Origin: Aquisphaera giovannonii | GTDB lineage: Bacteria > Planctomycetota > Planctomycetia > Isosphaerales > Isosphaeraceae | Reading direction: 5' to 3' | Length of the DNA stretch: 64,000 nucleotides | NCBI RefSeq assembly: GCF_008087625.1 | Contig: NZ_CP042997.1 | Coordinates: 9,796,001-9,860,000, forward strand | Shown here: positions 2,640 through 23,575 of the stretch, piece after piece | Numbering within the stretch: position 1 is the first letter of the stretch | How the letters are laid out: every line of letters begins with the position of its first letter | Notes under the pieces: model-generated | Databases searched by the model: none | Told to the model about the DNA's origin: nothing | Seen by the model: the letters and a program-made list of their open reading frames with translations, nothing else | Translations under genes and position numbers: made by a program

Positions 2640-2673
2640 GCGACCGCCTCCGGGAGAGTCGTCGGGGTCCCGA

Positions 2674-2747
2674 TGGGGCCGGCCGGAGTTGAACCGGCCG
2701 CCATCCCGATTGAGGGTCGGGCCGCTCTACCGCTGAGCTACGGCCCC
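2674..2747 (-). tRNA. Atypical tRNA-like gene, copy 1
   Basis: The minus strand folds as a cloverleaf: acceptor GGGGCCG/CGGCCCC, D arm GCTC-AGCGGTA-GAGC, T arm GCCGG-TTCAACT-CCGGC and discriminator A. The anticodon arm is odd. The stem CCCGA/TCGGG closes a loop CCCTCAA, so the residue before the putative CTC anticodon is C and not the near-universal U33, and an extra G lies between the D and anticodon stems. CTC would read Glu codons, but the body does not resemble bacterial tRNA-Glu. No CCA is encoded. It could be a divergent tRNA, a tRNA pseudogene or a tRNA-like RNA with another job. Confidence 0.6.
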
Positions 2748-2806
2748 ACCGGGCAGGGCCCATTGTCGGGCGCGTCGCGTCGGCACGCCAGGCACTGCGG
2801 TCCCGG

Positions 2807-2882
2807 CGGGGCCGGCCGGAGTTGAACCGACCGCCGTCCCATTTTGCGAAAGTGGGCCGCTCTACCGCTGAGCTACGGCCCC
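2807..2882 (-). tRNA. Atypical tRNA-like gene, copy 2
   Basis: This is a tandem relative of the copy 59 bp downstream, with the same acceptor stem, D arm and T loop. The anticodon arm is 19 nt in place of 17. CCCA/TGGG is followed by a C-A mismatch and a self-complementary TTT-CGC-AAA core, so a normal 7-nt anticodon loop cannot be drawn; a 5-bp stem would leave a 9-nt loop. The T stem keeps five pairs including one G-U. Discriminator G. The intact cloverleaf core and tandem arrangement support a real structured RNA, but no amino acid can be assigned. Confidence 0.55.
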
Positions 2883-8500: not shown

Positions 8501-8675
8501 GACCTCGGACGAGCTCTTCCTCGTCACGGGCGTCAACCAGGAGGCGCGCATCGCCCGGTCCGACGTCGAGGAGATCCGCCCCGGCACCGTCTCCGTCATG
8601 CCCGCCGGCCTGGACCAGCAGCTCTCCGTGCGGGACCTGGCGGACCTGGTGGCGTTCCTGAAGGCGTGCCGGTGA
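5517..8675 (+). CDS. PVC-type haem-binding protein: beta-propeller, HEAT repeats, cytochrome c
   Basis: 1052 residues with an N-terminal hydrophobic export signal. Residues of about 40-410 form a glucose/sorbosone-dehydrogenase or NHL-like beta-propeller, with repeated DRDGDGRYETRTVF-type Asp/Gly motifs and a DVDFHPTDVAEDADG segment. Residues of about 420-880 are Ala-rich helical HEAT repeats. The C-terminus carries one c-type haem site, CFTCH (Cys931, Cys934, His935), followed by GGDVGPDLTKVG and the typical C-terminal domain ending VRDLADLVAFLKACR. This is the planctomycete PVC-type haem-binding CxxCH architecture. By family it is exported and may oxidise carbohydrates or alcohols, but the substrate is unknown. 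A second member lies at 51490-54489. It is preceded by a long gap and is probably monocistronic. Confidence 0.9.
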   Translation: MNPRACGGRPKGLALIPAVGLSLILNLAGATMDAAAGEFKIGERTLKVPDGFVAELVAGPPVADRPITIDFDETGALYVADSSGSNDPVQKQLKERPHRILRLVDRDGDGRYETRTVFADRMMFPEGTLWHDGSLYVSAPPTIWKLTDTDGDGVADRREEWLTRTLTGCANDLHGPYLGLDGRIYWCKGAFAEQTYERPGKPPFVTKASHIFRARPDGTQIEPVLTGGMDNPVDVAFTPGGERILTCTFFQHPGGGKRDGLIHAIYGGVYGKITGPIFEPAHKWTGPEVMPVLLHMGPAAPCGLTRYESEALGPEFRDNLFACYFNLHKVSRHVLKPEGSTFTATEEPFVSSPDVDFHPTDVAEDADGSLVVVDTGGWYKLCCPSSQLHKPDVLGGIYRVRRKDAPRVEDPRGLSIDWKALPPADLAKLLGDPRPAVQRRAIATLAKRGEAAIGALAPHDVSSPLGRRNAAWTAARIDGLVARSFVRAAIEDADPDTALAAIHVAGLHRDKEAASPLVTKLGQPSAHARRAAAEALGRIGDPSVVPALLQALAAKPDRPLEHSLIYAAIEIGDRDAVSKAAHSTDPAVRRGAIIAMDQMDGGSLDPREVAGLLTSSDVPLREAASWILGRHPEWGGALAGSCRERLAKGPADAAGGTELEKQLARFAGAAEIQALLAETVADEAAPAASRLVAAKAMARAGLKDAPDSWVASLAKVLAGRPARPEALELTRQAVATAAALAPPPEKARALIPALAAIGRDEKADEALRLSALAAVPGGLKPLDDATLGYLVGHLDRDQPAAIRGAAASAISRAGLSKGQLERIAGSLKAAGPLEVDRLLTAFEQSADGAVGLTLVKALGDSPALSSLRAEAIRQHLAKYGPPVQAAAEGLYARLNADAAKQRAKLDELASKVAGGDIRRGQAVFLSEKAACFTCHAIGYRGGDVGPDLTKVGEVRTERDLLESIVFPSASLVRSFEPVVVATSDGKVVNGLLKRETSDELFLVTGVNQEARIARSDVEEIRPGTVSVMPAGLDQQLSVRDLADLVAFLKACR

Positions 8676-9198
8676 GCGGAGAGGAGCCTCAAGCGATACG
8701 GTCCTCCGCTGCGAATCCGGTCGGGGTCATTCGCCTCGCCACCTTCAGCGCCCTGGTGAGCTCGGCTTTGCCCGCAACTCGGGCCGAGGGACCATTCTTA
8801 TCCCCTCCCCCCGCCGCGGGGGAGGGTTAGGGAGAGGGGGTCCGGGGGCCTTCGAGTGCCAGGCGAGCTCGCGAGGCGGCGAGGCCTCGACGGATACTCC
8901 CGGGTTGTTTTCGCATGTCTTCGGCGGTCGCCCCCTCTCCCTAGCCCTCCCCCGCGGTGGGGGGAGGGGACCGGAGTGCCGCATGCCCACTCGCGGGTCA
9001 TGACAGGCCCGGCAAGGCGCGAGCCGGAGCGATTGCCCCGGACGAAGGGGTGGGCCCCAGACGCCCGCTCGCTCCCCGCGGCGCGGCCGTCGGCATCGCG
9101 TTTGCCTTTATGAAGAATCGTGGCGATGAGCCAGGGCCTTCGGGGCCGGCCTCTCCGGGCCTCGCGGGATCGGACGATCGATTGAGGGCACAAGGCGA
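8676..9198. other. Intergenic region with a long inverted repeat
   Basis: No gene is supported in these 523 bp between two plus-strand genes. The main content is the inverted repeat at 8801-8970. The final 30 bp contain no clear ribosome-binding site for the recQ-like gene that follows. Confidence 0.6.
8801..8970. repeat. Inverted repeat, 40-nt arms around a 90-nt spacer
   Basis: The arm at 8801-8840 (a TCCCCTCCCC tract, a CCGCGG core, then GGGAGAGGGGG) is the reverse complement of 8931-8970 with only two mismatches. Each arm is itself a near palindrome built from C-rich and G-rich halves. It resembles the CCCTCTCC...GGAGAGGG repeats scattered in many bacterial genomes. No transposase is nearby. 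Confidence 0.85.
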
Positions 9199-10716
9199 AT
9201 GCCAGGGACCCAACCCGCCGCGGGGCCGGTGCACGACCGGGCCGCGCTGTCGCGTCGCTTGCAGGAGCATTTCGGCTTCCGGAGGTTCCGCCGGGGCCAG
9301 GAGCAGGCCGTCCGCTCGGCCCTCCTGGGGCAGGACACGCTGGTCCTGATGCCCACGGGCTCGGGCAAGAGCCTCTGCTATCAGCTCCCGGCGCTGGAGG
9401 CGGAGGGGGCGACGATCGTGGTGAGCCCGCTCATCGCCCTCATGAAGGACCAGGTCGAGTCGCTCCGCTCTCGGGGCCTGCCGGCCCTTATGATCAACAG
9501 CCACCTCTCCGCCGCCGAGCGGAGGGCCGCCGAGGAGGTGATCGCCGGGGGCTTCCCCGCGTTCGTCTTCACGACGCCGGAGCAGCTCGCCGACCCGGAC
9601 TTCCGGGCCCTGCTGCGAAAGACCCAGGTCGACCTCTTCGTCGTGGACGAGGCCCACTGCGTGAGCCAGTGGGGGCACGACTTCCGCCCCGAATACCTCA
9701 CGCTCGGCGACGTCATCGAGGACCTGGGCCGGCCCACCGTACTCGCCCTCACGGCGACCGCCACGAGCGAGGTGGCCGACGACATCCTGCGGCAGCTCCG
9801 CATCCCGGACGCCCGCGTCGTCTCGACGGGATTCGACCGCCCGAACCTGCACATCGCCGCCACCCGCGCCACGAGCGAGGAGGACCGGTTCGCCCGCGTG
9901 TCGCGGGCCGTGGCCCGCTGCACGATCGAGGGCCTGGGGGGCGGGATCATCTACGCGTCGACCGTGAAGGCCGTCGGCGAGCTGGCCGACCGGCTCCGCG
10001 AGGAGGGCCTGTCGGTCGGCACCTACCACGGCCGGATGAGGGCCGCCGACCGCGCCGCCAGCCAGGACGCGTTCATGAGCGGCGAGGTCCCCGTCATGGT
10101 GGCGACCAACGCCTTCGGCCTGGGGATCGACAAGCCGGACATCCGCTTCGTCATCCACGCCCACCTGCCGGGGACCCTGGAGGCGTACTACCAGGAGATC
10201 GGCCGGGCGGGCCGCGACGGCGGGCCCGCCCGCTGCGAGCTGATCTACACCGACGACGACCAGAAGCTCCACAAGTTCTTCCAGTCGGGCCGGTACCCCA
10301 CGCCCGAGGACCTCGTCAACGCGCACCACGCCCTCAAGCGGCTGGCGGAGACGCCGCCGCTGTTCGACGAGCTCCAGGCGATCTCGCCGCTGCCGAAGTC
10401 GCGCCTCAAGTCGGCGCTGAACCTGTTCCGCTCGAAGAAGATCGTCAAGGAGGACATCGGCGGGCGATACCTGCTGCTCCGGCCGGACCTCACGACGGCC
10501 GACCTGACGCGGATCGGCCGCGAATACGAGGAGCGCGAGGAGGCGGAGCAGCTCAGGCTCCGCCGGATCCTCGACCTGGCCGAGCGTCGGGCGTGCCGCT
10601 GGCAGTTCCTGCTCGACGAGTTCGAGCCGGACCTGCCCCACGAGCCCTGCGGCCATTGCGACAACTGCGCCGCGGGCCGCGGCACGCCGGAGGTCCCCCT
10701 GCGGAAGGCGTCATGA
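9199..10716 (+). CDS. recQ: RecQ-family ATP-dependent DNA helicase
   Basis: 505 residues. The superfamily 2 helicase core is complete: FRRGQEQAV (Q-motif region, about 31-38), Walker A MPTGSGKS at 51-58, motif II DEAH at 150-153, LALTATAT (motif III), and the second RecA-like domain with [18 protein letters not shown] and [11 protein letters not shown] RecQ zinc-binding domain follows with Cys466, Cys484, Cys487 and Cys490. The HRDC domain of longer RecQ proteins is absent, so it is about 100 residues shorter than the E. coli enzyme. The family unwinds DNA 3' to 5' in recombination and repair. It stands alone between an intergenic repeat region and a convergent gene. The presence of both core domains and the zinc site makes it likely to be active. 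Confidence 0.95.
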
Positions 10717-10772: not shown

Positions 10773-11219
10773 CTACTTCTTCTCCTTGTCCTTCGGCACG
10801 TTCTCCGGCGGGGGCTCCATCGCGACGTCGTCCTTCGCGCCCGGGATGCTGGGCATCCTGCCCGGCGTCGGGAAGGCCTTGTCGGGGATGTCCTTCAGGT
10901 CCTTCTTGCGGTCCTTCTCCTCCAGCAGGGAATACCGCTTGTCCCCCTTGGAGCCGATCTCGTACCGCCCCCAGTACACCTGGCTGCTCGGGTTGTAGAA
11001 GTAGATGTACTGCGGCTGCGAGGGGTAGTAGATGCAGTAGTGGTACGTGTACGTCGTCGTGGTGACCGTCGGGTAGAAATAGTAGTTCGTGTAGTAGTAG
11101 CCGTTGTTCTGGCTGTAGTTCCACGACGAATCGTAGTACTGCCGCGGGCCGTAGGCGGACGCGTCGGGGACGTACAGGGCCAGGGCGGCCAGCAGGGGGA
11201 GGACTCGGCTCGGCTTCAT
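10773..11219 (-). CDS. Small exported Tyr/Asn-rich protein
   Basis: 148 residues from an ATG at 11219 preceded by GAGGAG at good spacing; the open frame extends further upstream but without a better start. An N-terminal signal peptide (MKPSRVLPLLAALALYV, cleavage near ASA) is followed by an unusually Tyr-rich stretch from about residue 24 to 85, with runs such as NGYYYTNYYFYP and PQYIYFYNP. A charged C-terminal tail follows, with EEKDRKKDLKDIPDKAF and a Lys-rich end. No domain is recognised. The composition suggests an exported surface or matrix protein. It starts the region that holds the kinase and caspases, but a link to them is not shown. Its 3' end faces the recQ-like gene. Confidence 0.75.
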   Translation of the reverse strand: MKPSRVLPLLAALALYVPDASAYGPRQYYDSSWNYSQNNGYYYTNYYFYPTVTTTTYTYHYCIYYPSQPQYIYFYNPSSQVYWGRYEIGSKGDKRYSLLEEKDRKKDLKDIPDKAFPTPGRMPSIPGAKDDVAMEPPPENVPKDKEKK

Positions 11220-11416
11220 GGCGGTTCTCCTCAAGGAGGACATGACATCGGCAACGGGCCTGCGGGCGAGGGGCTTGGACGCCCGACGGGCGGGTCCGGG
11301 GCGAGTCGCGCAGGACATCGACCGCCCGGTGCGGCCCGGAGGCCGCATCGTCCACACGACCTATCCGCGACGGACGGGAGCTCGGACGAGGGCCGCGGGG
11401 AGCCGGCCAGCCCCGC

Positions 11417-12613
11417 TCACTTCGGCTTCGAGTCCGGTAGGTCGGCCGGCTCGACGGACCTGTTGTAGTGGACGCCGAGCGACTCGCGGAGCTTGCCGAC
11501 GCTGCGGGTCATCTCGTTGTACCGCGTGTCCTTGGGGTCCACCGGCTTGCCGCGGGCCGTCGCGTCGGCGTCGCGGCTCCGCTCGTTGACGGCCCCCTCG
11601 TCGGCCGGGGGCTCGGCGTCGGCGGGCCAGGCCGCCTTGAAGCTGACGCTGATCGTCCCGACGGACGAGGACGAGGGGAGCAGCTTCGCCGCGGCGCTCC
11701 TGGCGTACTCGGAGACGTGGAAGGCGTCGGACCGCTCATTGGTGATGTGCCAGCCGGGGATGAGGCCTTCCTGGCCCTTCGGGACGATGACGACCTCGTA
11801 CTCCTTGTTCTCGCTGAAGGCGAACATCGATAGGCCGTCGATCGCGAGCGTGACGGCCACGTCGTGGTCGGCCCGGTTGCTGACCTTCACCGCGTAGACC
11901 TCCCCGCGCCGGATGTTGACGAAGGCCAGGCCGTCCTTGTCGAGCGTCGCGGCCCGGGGCCGATAGGTCTGGAGGTCGGGCGTCGCGTCGCCGGGGTCGG
12001 GGCCGACGAGGACCTCGATCGAGTACGGGCTCCCGGCGCGGGCCGAGATCCGGGTGCCCTCCACGCAGGGCGGCCGGATGTTGTCGAGGGCATCGTTGAC
12101 GGCCTTCTCGCGCTCGGCCGGGGCCGCCTTCGGGGGCGCGACCAGCGTGATCCCGGTCAGGGAGGCGATGGTCGTCAGGTCGAAGACGCCGCGGGAGGCG
12201 AGGTCGACGATCGGCTCGCCCTGGCGGTCCTCGATGTGGGCCTTGATCATGAGCGCCGTGGTCTTGGAGGCCTTGTCAGTGACGTCGCGGAACTCGCCGG
12301 AGACGATCAGCTCGGCGCTGCGGGTGGTCTGCACGCCCATCTTCTCGAGCTGCTCCATCAGCGACTTGGCGATGGCGGGGCCGCCGGTCGCGCCGTGGCG
12401 GGCCACGTCCCCCTTGGCGACGAACTCGCCGACCTGCACCGCGTTGCCCCGGTCCTTGACGGCCCCCATCACCTGCCTGGCCAGCTCGGCCATCTCCTTC
12501 TCGAGCGGGCCGGCCGCCGCGGCCCGGGCGCAGGCCGCGAGGGACAGGGCCGCCGCGGGCAGCAGGCGGGCCCAGCCGCACCACCTTCGTCGTCTCGAGC
12601 TCGTTCGCGACAT
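11417..12613 (-). CDS. Exported FlgO/CsgG-like protein, paralogue 1
   Basis: 398 residues from the ATG at 12613 with a purine-rich upstream sequence; a longer start at 12646 is possible. After a basic, hydrophobic signal peptide, residues of about 35-190 resemble FlgO/CsgG-type envelope proteins: LEKEMAELARQVMGAVKDRG, then a predicted strand, then a LMEQLEKMGVQ helix and SGEFRDV. The C-terminal half (about 200-330) is a beta-rich domain with YAVKVSNRADHDVAVTL and SVSFKAAWPAD. The protein at 18443-19573 matches it along its length, so the two are paralogues. It lies 67 bp downstream of the kinase-cytochrome gene on the same strand and may be co-transcribed. Function unknown; an exported partner of the kinase is an inference. 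Confidence 0.75.
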   Translation of the reverse strand: MSRTSSRRRRWCGWARLLPAAALSLAACARAAAAGPLEKEMAELARQVMGAVKDRGNAVQVGEFVAKGDVARHGATGGPAIAKSLMEQLEKMGVQTTRSAELIVSGEFRDVTDKASKTTALMIKAHIEDRQGEPIVDLASRGVFDLTTIASLTGITLVAPPKAAPAEREKAVNDALDNIRPPCVEGTRISARAGSPYSIEVLVGPDPGDATPDLQTYRPRAATLDKDGLAFVNIRRGEVYAVKVSNRADHDVAVTLAIDGLSMFAFSENKEYEVVIVPKGQEGLIPGWHITNERSDAFHVSEYARSAAAKLLPSSSSVGTISVSFKAAWPADAEPPADEGAVNERSRDADATARGKPVDPKDTRYNEMTRSVGKLRESLGVHYNRSVEPADLPDSKPK

Positions 12614-12680
12614 CACAGCCCTACCCTTCGGATCTCGATGGGCCATGCCCGGCCCGGGGCCCGCCGCCGGGCAGACGCGA

Positions 12681-15600
12681 TCAGTACCTCCGCTGCGGGG
12701 TCCCGCGACGGATCTGGAGATTGACCTCGTGGAACGTGGACAGCGTGCGGTCCTTGAGCGAGTCCCACTCGGAACGCTTGAGCGAGCCGCCGTCGGCCAG
12801 GACGCCCAGGCCGAGCTTCCCGAGCGCCGGGTTGTCGCGGATCCGGTCGCGCAGGCCCTTCGCGTCGGCCATGCCGAGCTCGGCGGCGACCTCGTCGGCC
12901 CCCATGTCCTTCTGGTAGAGCCGGGCGATCGTCGTGATCGGCTCCGGGAAGTCGCGGGCCGGCTTGCCCTTGTCGGCGCCGACCCGGAGGAACGGCCCAG
13001 TCGACTGCTCGACCGCGGCCAGGAACTGGGCCTCGTCGCCGGCGAGGATCTTGTCCCACTCCGCCTTGGCCGGAACGAGCCGCTCGAGCTTCTCGCGGGC
13101 GGCGCCGGCCGCGGCGGCCCCGGCGCGGAGGCGGTCCTGGAAGCGGATGACGCCGTCGCGATGGCAGGCCATGCACGAGAGGCCGGCGACGATCAGGGTC
13201 GTGCCGGATGTCCGGAGCGAGTCCCCGACGACCTCGGGCGGGCCGCTGTCGATCCGGTTCCCCCTGGCGTCCACGAGCATGTAGCCCTGGAGCCCGTTGG
13301 GGAGGCTGAAGAGGATCTCGCCGCCGGCGTGCTCGAAGGCCAGCCGCGGGTAGGGGTTGTCCGCGAACGCCGGGCCGAGCGGGTAGCGGAGGAGGTTGCC
13401 GGTCCCGTCGGTGTTCCGGAAGTCGTAGCTCTTCCAGTAATAGCCGCCGGCCGACTCGTGGCGATCGACGAGCCGATTGTGGCTGGAGACGCCGCTCGCC
13501 GTGAACCCGGCGCGGCGGAGCTGGTCGCCCAGGAAGTCGCGCCGGACGTCCACGCCGAGCCGGGCCTCCAGCTGCTCGGCGGTCGCGGGGATGTTCAGGA
13601 TCGCGTGATAGAGCTCCGGGCGGGCCGCCGCGTCCAGGAACCAGTCGGCGCGGACGTCCGGAGGCCCGGCGTCCTCGCCGACCAGCTCGTCGAGCTCGAT
13701 GGCCAGCGGGCGGACCGGGTCGCCGGACGGGCGATGGCGGTAGGTCAGGCCGTACGGATACACCTTGAGGATTCGGTCCCAGACCTCGCGGGCCTCCCAG
13801 CCCAGGCCGGTGACGTCGATCGCCAGCACGACCTGCCCGGGGCCGAGGGCCTCGGGCACCGCGACCTTGCGCCGGCTGCTCAGGCTGTTGAGCAGCTTCG
13901 ACACCCCCGCGCGGGCCAGCCGCAGCTCCTCGTCGGTGACCCTGGGGTTGTTGTGAAGGGTGGCGAGGGTGAAGTACCGCCAGCGGGGCCGCTCGGCCGG
14001 GTCGATCGCCCTGAGGTGGCCGACGATCGTCCCGAGCACGTCGGCGTCGCCCACCGGCTTGCGACGCTCGTGGCGGGGGAACGCCGCCCCGGCCGCGATC
14101 CAGTCGCGGATCAACGCCAGCTCGCCGTCGGAGGGCTTGGGCCCGGAGGGGGGCATGTCCTTGTCCTCGCCGAGCCGCTTCCACAGCTCGGACTCCTCCG
14201 GCTTGCCCGGGGTGACGTACGGCTTCTCCCCCTCGCCGCGCCTCGCGACCAGGGCGTCCCGATCGAGGACGTCGTAGCCGGGGACCTCGAACCGGACGCC
14301 GTGGCAGCGGTGGCAATGCGCCTTCAGGAAGGCGCGGGCCTTCCCGGGCAACTCGGGATCGGCGGCGACCTTCGACGCGTCCCCGGAGCCTGTCCCGGAG
14401 GATGGCCGCTGCGGCTCCGGTCCACCCCCTGCGACTCCCCCTTGGTATGGGGGAGAGCCCGACTTCGCTTCTCCCGTTGCCAAGGGGTGATTCGGGTCGG
14501 CCGCGACCTTCGACGCGGGCGGGAACGCTGTCTCGGAAGCCGGGCGTTGTGGATTACCCCCTCCAACTCCCCCTTGGTAAGGGGGAGGGCCGGATTTCAC
14601 TTCTACCAGGGGGGGCTTCTGGGACGGGCTCTCGGAGGCCTGGGCGACGGTGGTGGGATCGCGAGGCGGCTCGGACTTGACCGGCGGAGGCTCGGGCTCG
14701 GAGGCGGGCTTCGGCTCGGCCCGAGGGACCGGCTCGGCCTCGGCCTCGCTCCCGCCCGGACGCGCCTTCTCGCCGGAACTCGACGGCCATCGGGGGCCGA
14801 GGAGGGCGGCCAGCACCGCGAGAGTCCCGACGCCGATCAGTGCGGCGACCAGGCCGACGGCCCGGCCCCGGCGTTGACGCGATTCCGCCTTCTGGCCCCG
14901 CCAGTCGGCCGCGGCGGCCGCCGGGCGAGGGTCGGTCGCCTCCTGGACGGCGGTCGGGGCCGTGGCGGGGTGGGTCGACGGCGCCTTCGGGTTCCAGGTC
15001 AGGTCGGCATCCGGGGTGCCGGCCGGCCCGGCGAGGTCCTCTTGCCGGTGCCGCACCGCCCGGTCGCGGTCGGCCCGCTCGAGCTCCCGGACGAACTCGC
15101 GGCAGCTCGGCCAGCGGTCGTCGGGCTTCTTGGCGAGGGCCCGGGCGACGGCGGGCCGCTCCCCGGCCGGCAGGCCGAAGAGGTCCGGCTCGCCGTGGAG
15201 GTGGCCCAGCAGCACGTCCGCGACCGGGCCCCGGAACGGGAGCTGCCCCGTCCGGAGCTGGACGTAGGTGACGGCGAGCGCGTACTGGTCGCTCCGGCCG
15301 CTGATCTTGCCCGCGAGCAGCTCCGGCGACGCGTAGTGGGGCGTCATGCAGCCGGAGTGGTCCTCGAGGCCCGCCTTCACCACCTTGGCCAGGCCGAAGT
15401 CCGCCAGCCGCGTCGAGCCGCCGACCAGGAACACGTTGTGGGGCTTGATGTCGCGGTGCTGGACGCCGACGAGCGTGCCGTCCGCCGCGCGGTGCCGGGG
15501 CTCGTTGAGGAAGTCGATCGCCGCGGCGAGCTCGCCCATGTAGCCGAGCAGCTCCGCCGGGGGCACGCCGGGCAGGCCCTCCTTGCGGCACTCGGCCAGG

Positions 15601-15890
15601 CGGTCCGTCAGGCTCTTGTCGCACAGCGGCATCGCCACGACCAGGCGGTCGTCCACCTGGACGATGAACTGGACGTCCAGCAGGTGGGGATGGCGGATGT
15701 CGCGGATGACGTCCAGCGAGCGCAGCTCCGGGCGGGCGAGCGCCGAGTCCAGGCGGATGAACTTCAGGGCGACGCGCACGCCCCCCGGGGCGATCGCCTC
15801 CCACGCCTCGCCCACGCCCCCCTCCCCGAGCTTCCGCACGAGTCGATAGCCGGTGACGGGTTCGGCGCCGGCCTCGAGGCGGAGTGGCAT
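12681..15890 (-). CDS. Transmembrane Ser/Thr protein kinase fused to c-type cytochrome domains
   Basis: 1069 residues from the ATG at 15890, which has a strong AGGAGG site. Residues of about 13-275 are a Hanks-type kinase: glycine loop GEGGVG at 22-27, Lys43, HRDIK at 145-149 and DFG from Asp164, all intact. A Pro-rich linker, one membrane segment (about 343-365) and a low-complexity stalk with two PPYQGGV repeats follow. The outer part has a first haem site CHRCH (Cys526, Cys529, His530) in a planctomycete cytochrome c-like domain with MPPSGPKPSDGELALIRDWI. A larger domain follows with LHNNPRVTDEEL and SGVSSHNRLVDRHE, and a second haem site CMACH (Cys906, Cys909, His910). The kinase would face the cytoplasm and the haems the periplasm. 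A FlgO-like gene follows on the same strand. Confidence 0.9.
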   Translation of the reverse strand: MPLRLEAGAEPVTGYRLVRKLGEGGVGEAWEAIAPGGVRVALKFIRLDSALARPELRSLDVIRDIRHPHLLDVQFIVQVDDRLVVAMPLCDKSLTDRLAECRKEGLPGVPPAELLGYMGELAAAIDFLNEPRHRAADGTLVGVQHRDIKPHNVFLVGGSTRLADFGLAKVVKAGLEDHSGCMTPHYASPELLAGKISGRSDQYALAVTYVQLRTGQLPFRGPVADVLLGHLHGEPDLFGLPAGERPAVARALAKKPDDRWPSCREFVRELERADRDRAVRHRQEDLAGPAGTPDADLTWNPKAPSTHPATAPTAVQEATDPRPAAAAADWRGQKAESRQRRGRAVGLVAALIGVGTLAVLAALLGPRWPSSSGEKARPGGSEAEAEPVPRAEPKPASEPEPPPVKSEPPRDPTTVAQASESPSQKPPLVEVKSGPPPYQGGVGGGNPQRPASETAFPPASKVAADPNHPLATGEAKSGSPPYQGGVAGGGPEPQRPSSGTGSGDASKVAADPELPGKARAFLKAHCHRCHGVRFEVPGYDVLDRDALVARRGEGEKPYVTPGKPEESELWKRLGEDKDMPPSGPKPSDGELALIRDWIAAGAAFPRHERRKPVGDADVLGTIVGHLRAIDPAERPRWRYFTLATLHNNPRVTDEELRLARAGVSKLLNSLSSRRKVAVPEALGPGQVVLAIDVTGLGWEAREVWDRILKVYPYGLTYRHRPSGDPVRPLAIELDELVGEDAGPPDVRADWFLDAAARPELYHAILNIPATAEQLEARLGVDVRRDFLGDQLRRAGFTASGVSSHNRLVDRHESAGGYYWKSYDFRNTDGTGNLLRYPLGPAFADNPYPRLAFEHAGGEILFSLPNGLQGYMLVDARGNRIDSGPPEVVGDSLRTSGTTLIVAGLSCMACHRDGVIRFQDRLRAGAAAAGAAREKLERLVPAKAEWDKILAGDEAQFLAAVEQSTGPFLRVGADKGKPARDFPEPITTIARLYQKDMGADEVAAELGMADAKGLRDRIRDNPALGKLGLGVLADGGSLKRSEWDSLKDRTLSTFHEVNLQIRRGTPQRRY
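14433..14590. repeat. Two CCCCCTTGGTA repeats inside the kinase gene, 132 bp apart
   Basis: The palindrome-like sequence ACTCCCCCTTGGTA followed by GGGGGAG occurs at 14433 and again at 14565, in the same frame. Both encode PPYQGGV in the stalk of the kinase-cytochrome protein, and the surrounding 44 codons (including SKVAADP) are also repeated. The nucleotide motif is like a widespread intergenic palindrome, here carried inside a coding sequence. Confidence 0.75.
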
Positions 15891-16398
15891 GACGGCCTCC
15901 TGGGTGGACCTGCCGCCCCGTGTCCCGGGGACCGGAGTCGGGCTGACGGGCGGACGACGGCCGGCGCGGGCCCCTACCCCAACCACATAGGATCCGGTCG
16001 TCGCGCTCGGGCCGGGCATCGGGATCGTCCTCCTCCGGGGCAACGGCTCCCGGGCGGAGGACCCGGTCCGGGGCGATTCCGCGCCGAGCCCCGCCATTCT
16101 CCTATCTCCGCAGCCCGGATGTAACGGACTATCCGCGAATCTGCCCTCGACCCGACGTCGATGTGAGCGGGACGACCTGTCGGCGGAAAGGCCGCAGGCC
16201 GGCGAGCGTCGGCCCGGGCGTCCGGATCGCACTGACGTGCGAGGCCGGGGGCTTCGCCCGTCCGAACCGCCCGCTCACGCGGGTAGTCACCTTGCCGTGA
16301 CATCGCCGGTGATGCGTCGAGCCGAGGTCCCACTCCGGCCGCGTAGGCCACTGCCCCATGATCCATCAACACCGCGGGCCGGTACCCGAAGTCGCGGC
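15891..16398. other. Intergenic region, nothing identified
   Basis: The region lies between the kinase-cytochrome gene and the caspase-SUMF1 gene, both on the minus strand. It presumably contains the kinase promoter. A 76-codon open frame at 16129-16359 has no motif. I see no repeat, RNA gene or clear promoter. Confidence 0.5.
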
Positions 16399-18174
16399 TC
16401 AGCGAGGGGCGGCCGCGACCCGGGCCACGCGGAAGCCGAGGTCGTAGCACCGGTAGTCCGGCTTGACCCCGACGCGGCGCGCGGACCGCGCGTATCGCGG
16501 GTCGTCGGCCCAGCTCCCGCCGCGATACACCCGCCGCGGCGCCTCCGAAGGTCCGGCGGGATCGTCGGGGGCCGCGTGCTCGTAGGCGTGCTCGTCGTAC
16601 CCGTCCCGGCACCATTCCCAGACGTTCCCGTGCATGTCGTGCAGGCCCCAGGCGTTCGCGGGGAACCGGCCGACGGGCGCGGCGAAGGCGTGGCCGTCTC
16701 GGGCCGCGATCGTCGTCCAGTCGGGGAACTTCGCCCGGGCGGTGCCGTCGGCGACGTTGCCGACCGAGGCGAGCGACTCCGGGTCGGGCCCGCTCGCGTA
16801 TCGCGAGGTCGTCCCCGCGCGGCAGGCGTACTCCCACTCGGCCTCCGTCGGCAGCCGGTAGGTCGCCGCTTCCTTTGAGCCCAGCCACGCGCAGAAGGCC
16901 GCCGCGTCGTTCCACGTCACGTTCGAGACCGGATGCTCGTCGGTCTGGGGGAAGCCGGGGTCTCGCCAGTTGTATTTCGGATCGGCCTCGAACCTCCCCT
17001 TGGACTCGTTCCAGCCGCGGCATCCCTTGCCGCCGCGCTCCGCCTCGGTGCGGTAGCCGGTCGCCTCGACGAAGCGGCGGAACTGCCCGACGGTCACCTC
17101 GGTCGCCCCCAGGTGGAACGGCCGCGTGATCCGCGCGGGGTGGGCGGGCTTCTCGTCGTCCTCCGCGTCCTCGTCGTCCGCCGAGCCCATCAGGAACGAG
17201 CCGGCCGGGATCGGCACCAGCTTCATCCCCAGGCTGTTGGTGATCGGAGAGTCGGCCCCGCCGGCCGCGGGCGTGCGGGTCTTGGACGTGTCTGCCGCGC
17301 CGGGGCCCGCCAGGCGGACGAGCGGGAACAGGTCGCGGCTCGTGCCGCGCAGCTCGGGCATCTGCCGCACGCCGTTCTTCTCCCGGACGTAGTCCCGCAC
17401 CCGCCGCTTGGCGTACTGGGCCAGCTCCTCGGGGGAGACCAGCGAGTCGCCGTCCAGGTCGGCCTCGCCGCCGAGCCCCTTGATCACGAAGTGGAAGAAG
17501 ACCCCGTGCTTGAGTTCCTCGTACTCCTGGGCCTTCTCCCCCTCGGAGCAGCTGAAGAAGGCCATCACCCCGCCCGGCGGCGGGACCACCTGCGGCCGGC
17601 TCAGGCTCTCGAGGTCCACCTCCGCCCTGGATCGCGAGTTCTTCGTCCGCGGGTCGTTGCGGCAGGCGTCGACCAGGAGCAGCTTCAGGCCGGCCCGGCA
17701 GGCCTCCAGCTCCTTGTAGACCTCGTCCAGCGGGATCAGGGTCGAGCGGTCGGCGAGCCTCGCGTCGGCCGGGCAGAAGTAGTTGGCCTTCTCGCCCGCG
17801 AACTGGACGCCGTGCCCGGCGAAGGCCACCACGACGGAGTCGGCCGGCTCCAGGTCCTCGAGGAGCAGCTTCAGCTCCTTGCGGATGTTGGCCGCCACCG
17901 GCAGCAGCCGCGGCCGCCGAGCCCCCAGCGTCTGCGTCATCAGGACGACGTTCGTCGGCTCGTAGCCGCCGGCCCGGAGCACCTCCGCCAGGCCGGTCAC
18001 GTCCTCCTCGGAATACGCCAGCTCGTGCAGCTCGTTCGGGTCGTACGCCCTGACCCCGACCAGCAGCGCGTAGGAGGCGCCCGGCTTCCCCTCGCGCCCG
18101 GCCGACGCAGCGGCCGCGAGCGACGGGGCCAGGAGGAGCGCCAGGGCGATCCGGAGGGGCGATCGATCGCGCAT
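16399..18174 (-). CDS. Exported caspase-like protease with SUMF1 (formylglycine-generating-enzyme-like) domain
   Basis: 591 residues with a cleavable signal peptide (hydrophobic 9-24). Residues of about 33-290 are a peptidase C14 caspase/metacaspase fold: AFAGHG with His121, and LLLVDACRND with Cys171, give the intact His-Cys dyad. SCSEGEKAQE and a DLDGDSLVSPEEL acidic loop follow. After a linker, residues of about 310-588 are a sulfatase-modifying-factor (SUMF1) domain: LGMKLVPIPAGSFLMGS, EVTVGQFRRFVEATGY, RLPTEAEWEYACRAG, HGNVWEWCRDGY and the ending RGGSW...GFRVAR. Such domains in bacterial conflict and signalling proteins are usually ligand-binding and not oxidases. Its signal peptide puts it outside the cytoplasm. 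A divergent FlgO-like gene starts 268 bp away, so they may share a promoter region. Confidence 0.92.
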   Translation of the reverse strand: MRDRSPLRIALALLLAPSLAAAASAGREGKPGASYALLVGVRAYDPNELHELAYSEEDVTGLAEVLRAGGYEPTNVVLMTQTLGARRPRLLPVAANIRKELKLLLEDLEPADSVVVAFAGHGVQFAGEKANYFCPADARLADRSTLIPLDEVYKELEACRAGLKLLLVDACRNDPRTKNSRSRAEVDLESLSRPQVVPPPGGVMAFFSCSEGEKAQEYEELKHGVFFHFVIKGLGGEADLDGDSLVSPEELAQYAKRRVRDYVREKNGVRQMPELRGTSRDLFPLVRLAGPGAADTSKTRTPAAGGADSPITNSLGMKLVPIPAGSFLMGSADDEDAEDDEKPAHPARITRPFHLGATEVTVGQFRRFVEATGYRTEAERGGKGCRGWNESKGRFEADPKYNWRDPGFPQTDEHPVSNVTWNDAAAFCAWLGSKEAATYRLPTEAEWEYACRAGTTSRYASGPDPESLASVGNVADGTARAKFPDWTTIAARDGHAFAAPVGRFPANAWGLHDMHGNVWEWCRDGYDEHAYEHAAPDDPAGPSEAPRRVYRGGSWADDPRYARSARRVGVKPDYRCYDLGFRVARVAAAPR

Positions 18175-18442
18175 GGAGGACGCCTCGTTCTCGGGATCGG
18201 GAGGTTCGGGCCCGGCCGCTTCCGATTGATGATAGAACGGCCATGTTGCTCGATTGTGTCGGGGGAGGCAAGGACCGCACGGATTCCATCGGCAAGCGTG
18301 CCCGATGCCCGCCCTCGATTGTCAGCGGGGCCCGCACCGGGTTAGTCTGAAGCCCATCGATCCGCGGCCCGCGAGGCGGCCGGGAAGGTCGCCGGGAATC
18401 CCCCCGTCGGCCGGCGGACCGAGCCGGATCCAGGACATCGCC

Positions 18443-19573
18443 ATGCCCCTGCCGTCGACCGGTCGCGTCGGGCCCATCGCCGCGCTCTGCCTCGTGACGT
18501 CCGCCTCCATCCCGGCGGCGTCCGCCGGCGCGGACGACCTGAACCGCGCGCTGGGCAAGCTCTCCGAGCGGATCAAGCGGGCGGCCGACGCCGAGGGGGA
18601 GACGGCGGTGGTCCTCAGCCCCTTCACCGCCCCGCAGAGGATGGCCGCCAACGGCTCGCCGGGGATCCGCAAGGCCCTCGAGGCGGAGCTGAAGCGGCGC
18701 GACGTGCTCGTGAAGAACGGCGCCCGGCTCGAGGTGAAGGGCGACTACGGCGAGGCGGAGGACCCGGCCGGGAAGGCGGTGGTCCGGATCCACGGCCGGC
18801 TGATCGACCGGGACAGCGGCCGATCGCTGGCCGAGCACAGCGTGGACGTCGACAACCTCACGTCGATCGCCGGCCTGGTCGGGGCCACGATGTCCGTCCC
18901 GATCGAGCCGGTGCCGGCGGACCGCGAGCGGGCGATCCGGGAGGGCCTCAGCCGGCCGAGCGCCCACGTCAGCTCCAGCCGGATCTCGGCCGGCCCGAAG
19001 AGCCCCTTCGCGATCGAGATCCTGGCCGGCCCCTCCGGCGGGGCGATCCGGCCCCGCACGGCCGAGGTCATCAACGGGCAGGCCTACCTGAATATCCGGT
19101 CCAGCGAGCGCTACGCCATCAAGCTGATCAACGATGCGCCCTTCGAGGTGGCCGCGACCCTGATGATCGACGGCCTGGGCCTCTTCGCGTTCAGCGAGCA
19201 CCCGGAGTACAGCTACGTGATCATCCCGGCGCGTTCCAGCGGCGTGATCACCGGCTGGCATCGGACGAACGACGAGGCGGAGGAGTTCGTCGTGACCGAG
19301 TATCCCCGGAGCGCCGCGGCCGAGCGGTCGCTCGCCCCGTCGCCGGACCTGGGCGTGATCACCGCGTGCTTCGCCGCCGCCTGGCCGGCGGGCGGCAACC
19401 CGCCCCTCGACGAGGGGATGGAAGGCCGCTCGGTCCGTGCCACCGGGCGGGGGCCGATCACCCGGGCCGAGCTCGCCGAGGTCGAGCGCAAGACGGGCCG
19501 ATTGCGGGCCGCGATCAGCGTCCGCTACACCAAGGACGACGGCCCCGGGGCGGTGCCGGACCGCCCGGAGTGA
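18443..19573 (+). CDS. Exported FlgO/CsgG-like protein, paralogue 2
   Basis: 376 residues from the ATG at 18443, the start that places a signal peptide at the N-terminus (MPLPSTGRVGPIAALCLV, cleavage near ASA); the frame is open further upstream. Residues of about 35-180 are FlgO/CsgG-like, with LNRALGKLSERIKRAAD and a KALEAELKRRDV helix. The C-terminal half matches paralogue 1 at 11417-12613: YAIKLINDAPFEVAATLMIDGLGLFAFSE, a VITGWHRTNDEAEEFVVTEY segment and ACFAAAWPAGG. It is transcribed away from the caspase-SUMF1 gene and converges on the caspase-TPR gene, whose stop is 32 bp away. Two such paralogues around two caspases and a kinase suggest a linked function, which is inferred. Confidence 0.75.
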   Translation: MPLPSTGRVGPIAALCLVTSASIPAASAGADDLNRALGKLSERIKRAADAEGETAVVLSPFTAPQRMAANGSPGIRKALEAELKRRDVLVKNGARLEVKGDYGEAEDPAGKAVVRIHGRLIDRDSGRSLAEHSVDVDNLTSIAGLVGATMSVPIEPVPADRERAIREGLSRPSAHVSSSRISAGPKSPFAIEILAGPSGGAIRPRTAEVINGQAYLNIRSSERYAIKLINDAPFEVAATLMIDGLGLFAFSEHPEYSYVIIPARSSGVITGWHRTNDEAEEFVVTEYPRSAAAERSLAPSPDLGVITACFAAAWPAGGNPPLDEGMEGRSVRATGRGPITRAELAEVERKTGRLRAAISVRYTKDDGPGAVPDRPE

Positions 19574-19604
19574 GCGCGGCCGGGGCGAGGAAGGGCCCGG
19601 CGGC

Positions 19605-21023
19605 TCAGGGCGTGCCCAGGCGGGAGTCGAGCCGAGCGGCCTTGCGGAAGTCCTCGGCGGAGCCGGCCTTGTCGCCGGTCGCCTCGCGGGCGATCGCCCG
19701 GTTGTAGTAGGCCTTCGCGTTGCCGGGGTCGATCTCGATCGCCCGCGTGCAGGCCGCGATGGCGTCCTCGGCGCGGTTCAGCCGGGTGAGGATCGCCCCC
19801 TGGCCGACGAAGGCCACGGCCAGGTCGCGGTTGATCTGGATCGCCCGCTCATAGTCCGCCAGGGCCCCCCTGAGGTCACCCTGGGCGCCGAGGGCGGTGG
19901 CCCTTCCGACGAAGCCCGCGGCGTCGGCCGGGTCGGTGCGGATCGCCTCGGAGTATTCCCGGGCGGCCTGGGGGAGCCGGCCCTTGGCGTGATGGAGCCT
20001 GGCCAGGCCGAGGTGCGCCTTGGCGGAATTCGGGTCGGCCTGGATGGCCCTGGCGAACTCGCGCTCGGCCGCGGCGTCCTCGCCCCGCCGCCGCATCGCC
20101 TCCGCCCGGTCGACGATCTCGACGGCCCCGGCCCCGGCCCCGGCGCGGGCGGCCGAGGGCCGCGGCCCGGCCAGCGACGCCACCACCCAGGCCTTCGCGG
20201 CCTCGTGGTCGCCGCGGAAGACCGGGGTCTGGATCGCCGAGAGCGCGTCGCGGGCGTGGGTCTTGGTCTCGCGGCGGACGAACGTCTCGAGCTCCTCGAG
20301 CGTGATCCGACGGTCGCCGTCCAGGTCGGCCCCCCCTTCCCACGCCCGGATGACCTGGTGGAAGAAGATGCCGTGGCGCAGGACCGGATCCTCGAAGCTC
20401 CGCTGCTCGCTGTTGCAGCTGAACAGCGCGGCGCTGCCCCTGGGCAACGCGGCCTCGGAAAGCCGCCGGGGGGGCTTCACCGTGACGCCCAGCCCGCGGG
20501 CGTTGTCGGCCTCGGGGTCGTTGCGGCAGGCGTCGACGAGGAGCAGCTTCAGGCCGGCCTGGGACTTCTCGATCTCCTCGTTGATGGCCTTGATGTTGAT
20601 GAGCGTCGCGGGGTCTTTCAGGTCGGCGTCGGCCGGCAGGAAGAAGCTCTCGCCCGCCTGGCCGACCTCCACGCCGTGCCCGGCCATCGCCACGACGAGC
20701 GAGTCGTCCGGCTCGAGCGTCGCCAGCAGCAGGTGGAACTCCCTCTGGATGTTCTTGCCGGACGGCCGGAAGCGGGGATTCGACTGGCGGTCGTGCATCA
20801 GGACGATGTTCCGGGCCGGCACCCCGGCGTTGCGGAGCACCCCGGCGAACGCGATCACGTCGTCGGAGGCGAACCGGAGCGCCTTCAGCTCGTCCTTCCT
20901 CTCGTATTCCGAGACCCCGACGAGGAAGGCGTAGGTGTCGCCGCGGGACGGCGACGCCGTCCCCAGCAGGGCGACCAGGCCGAGCGTCGCCCACAGCCCG
21001 CCGCGGCGTCGAGATCGTGTCAT
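19605..21023 (-). CDS. Exported caspase-like protease with TPR repeats
   Basis: 472 residues with a signal peptide (hydrophobic 9-22). The caspase domain spans about 29-270: VAMAGHG with His116 and LLLVDACRND with Cys166 form the dyad, followed by FSCNSEQRSF and an acidic DLDGDRRITLEEL loop as in the caspase at 16399-18174. The two caspase domains are clearly related, but this protein ends differently. After an Ala-rich linker, residues of about 305-465 form four or five TPR units (AEREFARAIQADPNSAKAHL, AREYSEAIRTDP, ALADYERAIQINRD, AIAACTRAIEIDPGNAKAYY). TPRs bind peptides or partner proteins. The gene converges on FlgO-like paralogue 2 and diverges from the WYYPDGRPY-repeat gene. Confidence 0.92.
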   Translation of the reverse strand: MTRSRRRGGLWATLGLVALLGTASPSRGDTYAFLVGVSEYERKDELKALRFASDDVIAFAGVLRNAGVPARNIVLMHDRQSNPRFRPSGKNIQREFHLLLATLEPDDSLVVAMAGHGVEVGQAGESFFLPADADLKDPATLINIKAINEEIEKSQAGLKLLLVDACRNDPEADNARGLGVTVKPPRRLSEAALPRGSAALFSCNSEQRSFEDPVLRHGIFFHQVIRAWEGGADLDGDRRITLEELETFVRRETKTHARDALSAIQTPVFRGDHEAAKAWVVASLAGPRPSAARAGAGAGAVEIVDRAEAMRRRGEDAAAEREFARAIQADPNSAKAHLGLARLHHAKGRLPQAAREYSEAIRTDPADAAGFVGRATALGAQGDLRGALADYERAIQINRDLAVAFVGQGAILTRLNRAEDAIAACTRAIEIDPGNAKAYYNRAIAREATGDKAGSAEDFRKAARLDSRLGTP

Positions 21024-21415
21024 GGGCTCGAGTCCTCGGTATTCGTCCCCGCCCGGCGGGGGCCGTCGATCGGCCGGCTGCGCCCGGCCCGCGTCCGCGC
21101 ACCATACTCACTCTATATACGTATCCGCGGGGGCGCCCGGACTCCGACATCGCGGCCGGAGAAGGCGCGTCCGGGCCCGCGCGGCGGCGAAGCGGGCGTG
21201 CACACGGCCGTCCGGTCGAGGCACGCGTCGAGGATAACATCGGGGCGGGGGCGTCACGCACCGGAAATTGTGTCGCATTCTTGCGGGGGATTCGCGAAAT
21301 GCGGATGATAACTCCAGGATCGTCCATCGATCGAGCGTCCGCGCCACGTCCCGAGCGGCATCAAGGGCCGCCGCGAGCCCCGAGATCGAACCCCTTCGCC
21401 ACGGAGTGGACCGCC
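21024..21415. other. Divergent intergenic region, probable promoters
   Basis: It separates the caspase-TPR gene (minus) from the WYYPDGRPY-repeat gene (plus). A locally A/T-rich stretch at 21101-21126 includes CATACT and TATATAC, which could serve as -10 elements, but no convincing -35 partner is seen. The start of the plus-strand gene has only a weak upstream GGAG. No gene or repeat is identified. Confidence 0.4.
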
Positions 21416-23575
21416 ATGCGTGCGCCGAGTCGGGCTGGCATCGCGTCGTTGTCCGTCCTGCTGACCGGCCTCCTCGCGGGCCAGGGGCCGGCCCACGCCC
21501 AGTTCCGGATCGGCGGCGGCCAACGCGGCCAGTCCAACGCGCAGGAGGCCGCGCCCGGCTTCGGCGGGCAGAGGGGCAATGGCGGGACGGTCTTCCCCGG
21601 CAACTTCCCGCAGCAAGGCGGCGTCGGCGGGATACTCTTCCCCGGCGGCTTCCCGCAGCAGGGCGGCGGCGGGATGGAGAGGCAACCCCAGGGCCGACGG
21701 CCCCAGCGTGGCGAGGGCGATGCGTCCAACGGCCGTCGGGGGCCGACCAACGGCAACCCGACGGGTCCGAATCCCGGCCAGCCGTTCCAGGGTTCCGACG
21801 GCCGGTGGTACTACCCGGACGGGCGGCCCTACGGGTCGGTCCATCCCGGGCCGGGCGGGAACCTCGGCCAGCCCTACCAGGCCACGGACGGGAACTGGTA
21901 CTACCCCGACGGCCGCCCCTACACGGGCGTCGCCCAGCCGGCCATGGGCGGGAACCAGGGCCAGCCGTTCCTGGCCACCGACGGCAACTGGTATTACCCG
22001 GACGGGCGCCCCTACACGGGCGTGGCCGCCCAGCCGGCCGCCGCCAACCCGGGCCAGCCGTATCTCGCGGTGGACGGGAACTGGTACTACCCGGACGGCC
22101 GCCCCTACGTCGCCCCCGCCGCCGCGGCGGCGCCGGCCTCGACCGCCGCGACGCCCTCTCGCCCGGCCGCCACGGAGCCGGCCACGCCGGCCGCGAACAT
22201 CATCCCCGACCTGGCACGCCCCGCGGCGATCGCCGGGAACTCGGTGCGGACCCGCCTCCCGGCCGCCCGGCCCCCCGTCCGCGAGTCGCTCGGACAGGAG
22301 CTGACGCGCTCGCTCGAGGAGGGCATCGAGAGGATGGAGGACAACCTCCGCGCGGCCCTCTTCGGCGAGGCCGACGAGGCCGCCTTCCTCGCCATCTACA
22401 AGCGGTCGTTCACCGAGGACACGCCGCAGTTCCGCCTGGCCCGGAAGAACATCAAGTCCCTCGACGCCGACGAGCTCCGCCAGGGGCTGGCCATCGACCA
22501 GGTCGTCGACGCGGGGGCCCAGGTCTATCCCTCCAAGCTCGAAGTCAGCGCCCGGTTCGGCGCCTTCAAGCGGGAGGTGCTCGAGGGCCGGTCGGCGGCC
22601 GAGCTCGACCAGGCGTCGAAGGCGCTGCTGAAGACCTACGAGCGGATCGCCCGGGCGCCCGAGTTCGCCGACACGGGCGTGCCGGCCCCGGAGCAGGTCC
22701 GCGCGGAGGTGGCCCGGCTGCGGGGCCTCTTCGAGGTGCGGCAGAGGCTCGCCGCGCCGGCCCCCGCGGAGGGGACGGTCGCGATGGACAGGCGGCTCTG
22801 GGTCGTCTCCTACCCCGGCCTGCCCCGCGACGCGATCCAGGCGGTCGATCCGCAGGTCTGCCTCTGGGGCACCGGCACCGGCGCGATCGACGTCCGCGAG
22901 GCCGGGCTCGTGGACCTGGGCGTCCCCCTGCTCAACCGCGTGGCCTCCCCGCTGCCCGAGGCGCCGAAGCCCCCCGCCCGCTCCGGGGCCCTCGTCTACA
23001 GCGCCAAGGACGCCCCCGCCCCCGTCAACTACGTCATCGACGGGGCCTCCTTCGAGCTGAAGCCCGGTGAGTCGCGATCCCACGAGGTCGCGGCGAATTC
23101 CCGGATCACCTACGACCGGGGCGGAGGCCTCGGCAACATGACCTACCAGCTGGCCGCGGGCTCGTATCGGTTCGCGGTCGAGGACCGGGCCTGGCAATTG
23201 ACCAAGCCGACCTTCTCGGCCGTCATCGACAACTCGGCCAACGGCTGCGATTTCCGCTGCGAGGTCGACGGCCAGGCGAGGACCGTCCCCGCGAGGAAGA
23301 CGCTGGAGGTGGCCGGCAACTACCCGATCTCGATCCGGTTCGAGCGCGAGGAGGGCCAGCCGGCGTCGACCAAGGTCCTCGACGAGCCGCGGCCGGTGAC
23401 CGTCGGCGTGGCCCCGGGCTCGACCGCGCTCGACCTCTATCCCGGGACGAGCCAGGAGCTCTGCGTCCGCCCCGTGGCCCCGGAGGCCGTCGCCTCCCTG
23501 CCGCAGGCCGAGCCGACGTCCCCCGCCAGGGCCGGCCGGCAGCCGCTACTCCCCACGGTCGACGACCTCCAGTGA
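21416..23575 (+). CDS. Exported protein with four WYYPDGRPY repeats
   Basis: 719 residues from the ATG at 21416, which gives a clear signal peptide ending GPAHAQ. Residues 30-110 are Gly/Gln/Arg-rich. Four tandem units of about 30 residues follow (about 118-232), each with a GQP(F/Y) start and a D-G-x-W-Y-Y-P-D-G-R-P-Y core. An Ala/Pro linker leads to a helical, charged region (about 275-450). The C-terminal third is beta-rich, containing DGASFELKPGESRSHEV, ITYDRGGGLGNMTYQL and WQLTKPTFSAVIDNS, of a type I associate with planctomycete surface proteins. No catalytic motif is visible. It is last in the kinase/caspase region and likely exported to the cell surface; the repeats may bind ligand or wall. 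Function unknown. Confidence 0.75.
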   Translation: MRAPSRAGIASLSVLLTGLLAGQGPAHAQFRIGGGQRGQSNAQEAAPGFGGQRGNGGTVFPGNFPQQGGVGGILFPGGFPQQGGGGMERQPQGRRPQRGEGDASNGRRGPTNGNPTGPNPGQPFQGSDGRWYYPDGRPYGSVHPGPGGNLGQPYQATDGNWYYPDGRPYTGVAQPAMGGNQGQPFLATDGNWYYPDGRPYTGVAAQPAAANPGQPYLAVDGNWYYPDGRPYVAPAAAAAPASTAATPSRPAATEPATPAANIIPDLARPAAIAGNSVRTRLPAARPPVRESLGQELTRSLEEGIERMEDNLRAALFGEADEAAFLAIYKRSFTEDTPQFRLARKNIKSLDADELRQGLAIDQVVDAGAQVYPSKLEVSARFGAFKREVLEGRSAAELDQASKALLKTYERIARAPEFADTGVPAPEQVRAEVARLRGLFEVRQRLAAPAPAEGTVAMDRRLWVVSYPGLPRDAIQAVDPQVCLWGTGTGAIDVREAGLVDLGVPLLNRVASPLPEAPKPPARSGALVYSAKDAPAPVNYVIDGASFELKPGESRSHEVAANSRITYDRGGGLGNMTYQLAAGSYRFAVEDRAWQLTKPTFSAVIDNSANGCDFRCEVDGQARTVPARKTLEVAGNYPISIRFEREEGQPASTKVLDEPRPVTVGVAPGSTALDLYPGTSQELCVRPVAPEAVASLPQAEPTSPARAGRQPLLPTVDDLQ
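21771..22109 (+). repeat. Tandem coding repeat, four units of 90-93 bp
   Basis: The codons for WYYPDGRPY recur at about 21806, 21896, 21989 and 22082. Units differ mostly at synonymous or linker positions, with unit lengths of 90 and 93 bp. They lie wholly inside the exported repeat protein and keep frame. Confidence 0.85.

Follow-up and report, generated by a model that had tools for sequence, protein, structure and literature searches.

Closest described systems

To our knowledge, little has been established about what bacterial caspases do, and discussion of these proteases has mostly cast them as effectors of death or conflict inside the cell. In the metazoan apoptosome, cytochrome c, Apaf-1 (a WD40 protein) and a caspase are united in one pathway. 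The locus described here is a ∼13-kb gene cluster of the planctomycete Aquisphaera giovannonii, at 10773–23575 of the window (the whole stretch analysed, 64,000 nt, NZ_CP042997.1 9,796,001–9,860,000), which encodes a di-haem cytochrome joined to a kinase, two exported caspases, two exported FlgO-like proteins and the exported proteins P7 and P6, and which is near certain to represent a conserved functional module of the Planctomycetia. Among prokaryotic caspases, FGE-sulfatase domains have been reported in 33 of 671 proteins and tetratricopeptide repeats (TPR) in many, with N-terminal helices noted as possible signal peptides (Asplund-Samuelsson 2012, PMC3501461); these metacaspase/orthocaspase fusions are the same as those of the cluster caspases. 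That survey treats single proteins, and a search of its text turned up no cytochrome, FlgO-like or Tyr-rich partners.

Ternary NTPase and TRADD-N/Death-domain conflict systems (PMC7159879, PMC8195603) likewise deploy caspase effectors with FGS, WD40 and TPR domains and are present in planctomycetes, but they centre on intracellular NTPases with EAD/Death-like adaptors, whereas the parts of the cluster are directed outwards, with a c-type haem protein taking the place of the NTPase. Neither an NTPase core nor an EAD adaptor was found among the window proteins, and 80 neighbourhoods showed no additional recurring family. Likeness to the apoptosome is a functional analogy only (cytochrome c, WD40, caspases): the arrangement is not homologous, there is no AP-ATPase, the caspases are of a different type and the setting is extracytoplasmic.

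Each protease and kinase taken singly belongs to a known family, and the caspase–FGE fusions, the caspase–TPR fusions and the PSCyt1 (PF07635) planctomycete cytochromes are already known; the N-terminal haem domain of the cluster protein is a PSCyt1 member, to which is added an undescribed haem domain of ∼430 aa lacking a Pfam match. From the outer-membrane proteins FlgO, CsgG and LptE, the FlgO-like protein differs in an extra C-terminal beta domain, its N-terminal domain showing a weak likeness to the LptE fold. A cluster of cytochrome, FlgO-like protein, caspase and P7 was not found in the papers searched, from which most subscription journals and preprints were excluded, and as a system it is apparently undescribed.

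Conserved co-localisation in relatives

Co-function had been inferred from clustering alone in an earlier note made from the letters of the window, with co-occurrence in other planctomycete genomes set beforehand as the check. In 99 related genomes, searched with cytochrome, FlgO-like and caspase profiles, a FlgO-like gene lies within 4 kb of the cluster-type cytochrome at 22 of 22 loci (within 0.71 kb at 21), and a caspase lies within 8.3 kb at at least 18 of the 22, where ∼0.9% would be expected per locus from a density of 0.49 caspases per Mb among the matches listed. The cytochrome–caspase link holds in at least 13 of 14 genera, with P ∼1e-33 when counted by site and, taking the highest caspase density, still <1e-14 when counted by genus; independence of the loci is assumed in these statistics, of which the by-genus value is the more cautious. 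Of 13 copies of P7 detected in the relatives, 11 lie within 5 kb of the cytochrome (chance ∼1e-32). Within the 10.5-Mb genome of A. giovannonii itself, the 13 kb contain both FlgO-like genes, the sole close cytochrome and the sole Tyr-rich gene as well as, among the matches listed, two of the five caspases, far beyond chance (bound 1e-12). Co-function is thus supported by a co-localisation seen in 14 or more genera belonging to several orders of Planctomycetia, a strongly positive outcome of the check set in the earlier note.

Named relatives were obtained from a scan of 84,980 species followed by annotation of the loci. Aquisphaera insulae (L021) carries the entire cluster in identical gene order; Singulisphaera acidiphila (L024) has the kinase–cytochrome, a FlgO-like protein, P7 and a caspase–WD40 protein; Rhodopirellula rubra (L047) has the cytochrome, a FlgO-like protein and a caspase–WD40 protein; and similar sets occur in metagenome-assembled genomes of Pirellulales and Gemmatales, so that the cluster is present in Isosphaerales, Pirellulales and Gemmatales. 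A tree of 76 cytochromes separates a cluster clade from a clade of long fusions (support 100/99); among the 60 entries of the former, FlgO-like genes are found at 55 and caspases at 42, several of the others lying on short contigs, whereas the fusion clade has neither alongside. FlgO-like genes without a cytochrome mostly adjoin a caspase. No further neighbour family, beyond cytochrome, caspase, FlgO-like protein and P7, is common among the 80 neighbourhoods.

The envelope-facing orientation proposed for the system is borne out by hydrophobic N-termini in 37 of 41 cluster caspases, 53 of 55 partner proteins and 14 of 14 Tyr-rich proteins. In the window, Sec-type N-termini are seen by inspection on all exported cluster proteins, signal peptides being called from hydropathy.

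A di-haem cytochrome with a lineage-specific kinase

The transmembrane Ser/Thr kinase–dihaem protein (P0003) is encoded at 12681–15890 on the minus strand, with a refined ATG start at 15890 preceded by a good Shine–Dalgarno site (AGGAGG). Pfam places Pkinase (9e-27) and PSCyt1 PF07635 (1.6e-7) in this one protein: a PknB-type kinase at residues 16–222, recognised by its profile and intact VALK, HRD and DFG motifs, a single transmembrane helix at 346–366, and two CxxCH sites at 527–531 and 907–911, in agreement with the kinase fused to extracytoplasmic haem domains that had been read from the sequence. The predicted first haem-c site (CHRCH, 14301–14315, minus strand) lies in the PSCyt1 domain, whose assignment is supported by the profile, the CxxCH and the distal Met in the following DMPP motif (14142–14162), the latter two conserved at 98–100% in the homologue alignment. 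The predicted second site (CMACH, 13161–13175, minus strand), in the C-terminal domain, is invariant in 75 of 75 homologous sequences; His318 and His361 of the alignment (window 13452–13472 and 13317–13340), conserved at ≥93%, are candidates for ligation or catalysis, and conserved Trp, Tyr and His are also present in the haem domain.

The model of the di-haem region, built without haem, reaches a predicted local distance difference test score (pLDDT) of 94, and no PDB fold matched it at E ≤ 0.001, a search with a haem-free model in which a distant relation is still possible; on this model, the ∼430-aa second haem domain has no known fold. Only the first 100 residues of the region match cytochromes c and FoxE by profile. 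Identity with MauG, di-haem cytochrome c peroxidase or RoxA was considered and, on the haem-free model, rejected, a common fold being found neither by profile nor by structure comparison.

The haem-linked kinase stands for this genome but not as a general trait: in cluster lineages the fusion is limited to the Aquisphaera type, Singulisphaera and one other, and elsewhere the cytochrome is free and exported, its usual form. On the tree, the kinase fusions require two or more changes within the cluster clade plus another beyond it; the kinase is an addition to the cytochrome confined to particular lineages. Fusion-clade cytochromes are joined to SUMF1, TPR, WD40, leucine-rich repeats or a kinase. 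In Poribacteria (L088, L090, L094, L098) the di-haem domain is found within very long proteins, fused at L088 to leucine-rich repeats, cohesin and dockerin domains; at L086 (6036–9779) it shares, by an apparent fusion, a 1248-aa frame with a domain like the C terminus of ribosomal protein L7/L12 (Pfam 3.8e-21), which occupies the far end. Stops inside some cytochrome C-terminus matches are alignment artefacts, the same genes reading elsewhere as open reading frames.

Exported caspases and their partner domains

Both caspases of the cluster are encoded on the minus strand and match their earlier description as exported proteases with intact dyads and different tails. The protein at 16399–18174 combines Peptidase_C14 (PF00656, 1.7e-20) with FGE-sulfatase/SUMF1 (PF03781, 2.8e-67), and that at 19605–21023 combines Peptidase_C14 (PF00656, 1.1e-13) with TPRs; the two are 42% identical, and the AGHG and DAC motifs are intact in both (His at 20670–20684 and Cys at 20520–20537 of the TPR protein). 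Fold by profile and His-Cys dyad identify the cluster caspases as orthocaspase-type C14 peptidases, the dyad being kept in 67 of 74 caspase domain hits, with most exceptions truncated or split. Caspase domains lacking the Cys or the His occur at L079 (17553–18443) and L039, and at L054, L076 and L079 four to seven caspase genes or fragments surround a single cytochrome–FlgO-like pair.

An acidic S1 pocket is indicated by the Asp of the ..DV motif (71 of 74) and that of DxC (68 of 74), whose roles in accepting Arg or Lys at P1 we take over from trypanosome MCA2. Since both aspartates are kept and the closest solved relatives are metacaspases and MALT1, the cluster caspases are predicted to cut after Arg or Lys.

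Cluster caspases bear SUMF1, TPR, WD40, Sel1 or no partner domain, and caspases and cytochromes are fused to a common palette of SUMF1, TPR and WD40 (with the kinase on the cytochrome), which suggests that SUMF1, TPR, WD40 and Sel1 are interchangeable recognition modules. The SUMF1 fold is supported by profile; the copper-binding Cys pair GGSxxCxxxxC is found in 0 of 41 SUMF1 domains, the window protein reading GGSWADDPRYAR, and the domains are for this reason unlikely to be formylglycine generators. A lectin-like reading of FGS domains (PMC8195603) fits them better.

FlgO-like proteins, P7 and P6

FlgO-like 1, an exported two-domain protein of 398 aa (11417–12613, minus strand), and FlgO-like 2 (18443–19573, plus strand, refined start 18443), divergently oriented to the caspase–SUMF1 gene, are conserved homologues of 39% identity. 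Their paralogy had thus been read correctly, whereas the FlgO/CsgG name attached to them finds no match in Pfam, NCBIfam or PHROGs, nor in any of 60 members (0/60), among which there is one LptE profile match at E 0.06, and most loci hold a single copy and not a pair. The model (pLDDT 88) comprises an alpha/beta domain and a beta domain; Foldseek returns weak LptE or PyrR matches at most, the N-terminal alpha/beta domain resembling LptE at probability 0.90–0.96 and E 7e-3 to 8e-3 with a low TM-score. The family occurs in 8 of 244 phylum-wide genomes, all 8 within the same class.

Neither this family nor P7 or P6 has a Pfam name. P7 (10773–11219, minus strand), a Tyr-rich exported protein of 148 aa, has the core RQYY..YYY..YHYC.YYPS...YYYNP..YWGR followed by a Pro/acidic tail, with ∼15 near-invariant Tyr kept across orders. 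It had been taken for a low-complexity protein and is instead a conserved planctomycete family; that description holds for the N-terminal half of P6 (exported, ∼720 aa, 21416–23575, plus strand, refined start 21416), which is Gly/Gln-rich with PDGRPY repeats and a tandem 93-bp repeat coding for NWYYPDGRPY-type units (21806–22108), the C-terminal half being conserved. P6 adjoins the cluster in A. insulae (76% identity) and a caspase in a single further family, and is otherwise unlinked; it was accordingly rejected as a core member and is a loosely attached one.

Genes around the cluster

The cluster has mixed strands and several transcription units; in this genome of 73% GC, start sites besides 15890, 18443 and 21416 are uncertain. 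A RecQ-type helicase (9199–10716, plus strand) directly adjoins it and does not recur at other loci. Farther from the cluster, an exported protein with HEAT-like repeats and a C-terminal CxxCH (5517–8675, plus strand) appears to be of the membrane-bound dehydrogenase type ordinary in planctomycetes, with a similar gene near the A. insulae cluster (L021, 14761–17952), and tRNA-Glu(CTC) and tRNA-Ala(CGC) stand in tandem at 2672–2882 (minus strand).

A proposed mechanism and its rivals

We propose, at a probability of roughly 0.4 for the mechanism as a whole, that the haem protein governs or accompanies regulated envelope proteolysis, in a single module working outside the cytoplasmic membrane whose core would be the di-haem c-type protein, the exported FlgO-like protein and exported orthocaspases with swappable modules, often with Tyr-rich P7. 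Either in the periplasm or at the surface of the cell, the haem protein would sense or process an oxidant or an electron acceptor; the state of the haem protein would be passed on by the FlgO-like protein as adaptor (or anchor), and this relay would license the caspases to cut envelope proteins picked by their recognition modules (FGS/SUMF1, TPR, WD40, Sel1). Since, in this lineage, a single membrane helix connects the haem protein with a PknB-type kinase in the cytoplasm, the same signal may also be sent inwards by phosphorylation. That the haem carries a signal, that the FlgO-like protein is an adaptor, which proteins the caspases cut and which way signalling runs are all inferred, as is the redox- or damage-responsive role suggested in the earlier note. 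A bolder form, in which the di-haem protein would represent a new class with an unprecedented haem domain and would directly control the exported caspases through interchangeable WD40, TPR or FGS modules (here also a cytoplasmic kinase), by analogy an extracytoplasmic counterpart of the cytochrome c–caspase axis, is doubtful.

Several observations weigh against regulated proteolysis governed by the haem protein. Sequence and models do not distinguish haem sensing from catalysis or electron transfer, so that a sensing role is presumptive; FlgO-like–caspase pairs without a cytochrome exist, making the parts partly separable; no caspase is in reach at about a quarter of loci, partly on short contigs; the kinase link is confined to few lineages; and at L101 P7 (9074–9568) and a divergent cytochrome (6768–9047) stand alone, with neither FlgO-like protein nor caspase. 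This last co-occurrence lends real support to the main rival, in which an envelope or surface layer would be matured oxidatively: a di-haem oxidase or peroxidase would modify or cross-link P7 and possibly also the WYYPDGRPY repeats in P6, with the FlgO-like protein aiding outer-membrane assembly and the caspases trimming the components. No other part accompanies the haem protein as specifically as P7, which lies within 5 kb of it in 11 of 13 cases; the Tyr of P7 are near-invariant, and Trp, Tyr and His are conserved in the haem domain; P7 is, however, absent from many loci that retain cytochrome, FlgO-like protein and caspase, and the cytochrome domain is unlike known peroxidases or MauG-type enzymes in profile and fold, leaving this explanation rather unlikely overall.

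A conflict or cell-death device, with caspases as executioners and FGS, WD40 and TPR domains as receptors for invaders or damage, would share the domain grammar of the systems in PMC7159879 and PMC8195603 and would suit the varying partner modules and the multiplied caspases of loci such as L054 and L076. It is weakened by the export of nearly all parts and by the absence from the cluster proteins of any NTPase (STAND, MoxR, GTPase), EAD/Death-like domain or nucleic-acid sensor; PADLOC gives generic caspase and kinase matches only, the pattern is vertical within genera, and we regard such a device as improbable. Slightly less likely still is a respiratory or metabolic accessory, the cytochrome being an electron carrier or enzyme merely turned over or processed by the caspases: PSCyt1 resembles class I cytochromes and FoxE, and planctomycetes hold many such cytochromes, but it is this subfamily, among the many PSCyt1 proteins per genome, that is tied to caspases, and among the 80 neighbourhoods there is no recurring gene for an oxidoreductase or redox enzyme, so that we judge it quite improbable. 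Mixed strands and several transcription units might recall unrelated genes adjoining by chance, a notion that the recurrent linkage refutes and that is hardly credible.

Significance

The recurrent association with a particular di-haem protein, with three exported families not yet characterised and with a haem domain lacking a known fold provides concrete, testable partners and substrates for exported caspases, along with what may be a transmembrane receptor linking haem to a kinase. The cluster suggests that proteolysis at the cell envelope is under oxidant or redox control, and the reason for the meeting of cytochromes and caspases becomes testable in cultured bacteria (Singulisphaera, Aquisphaera, Rhodopirellula).

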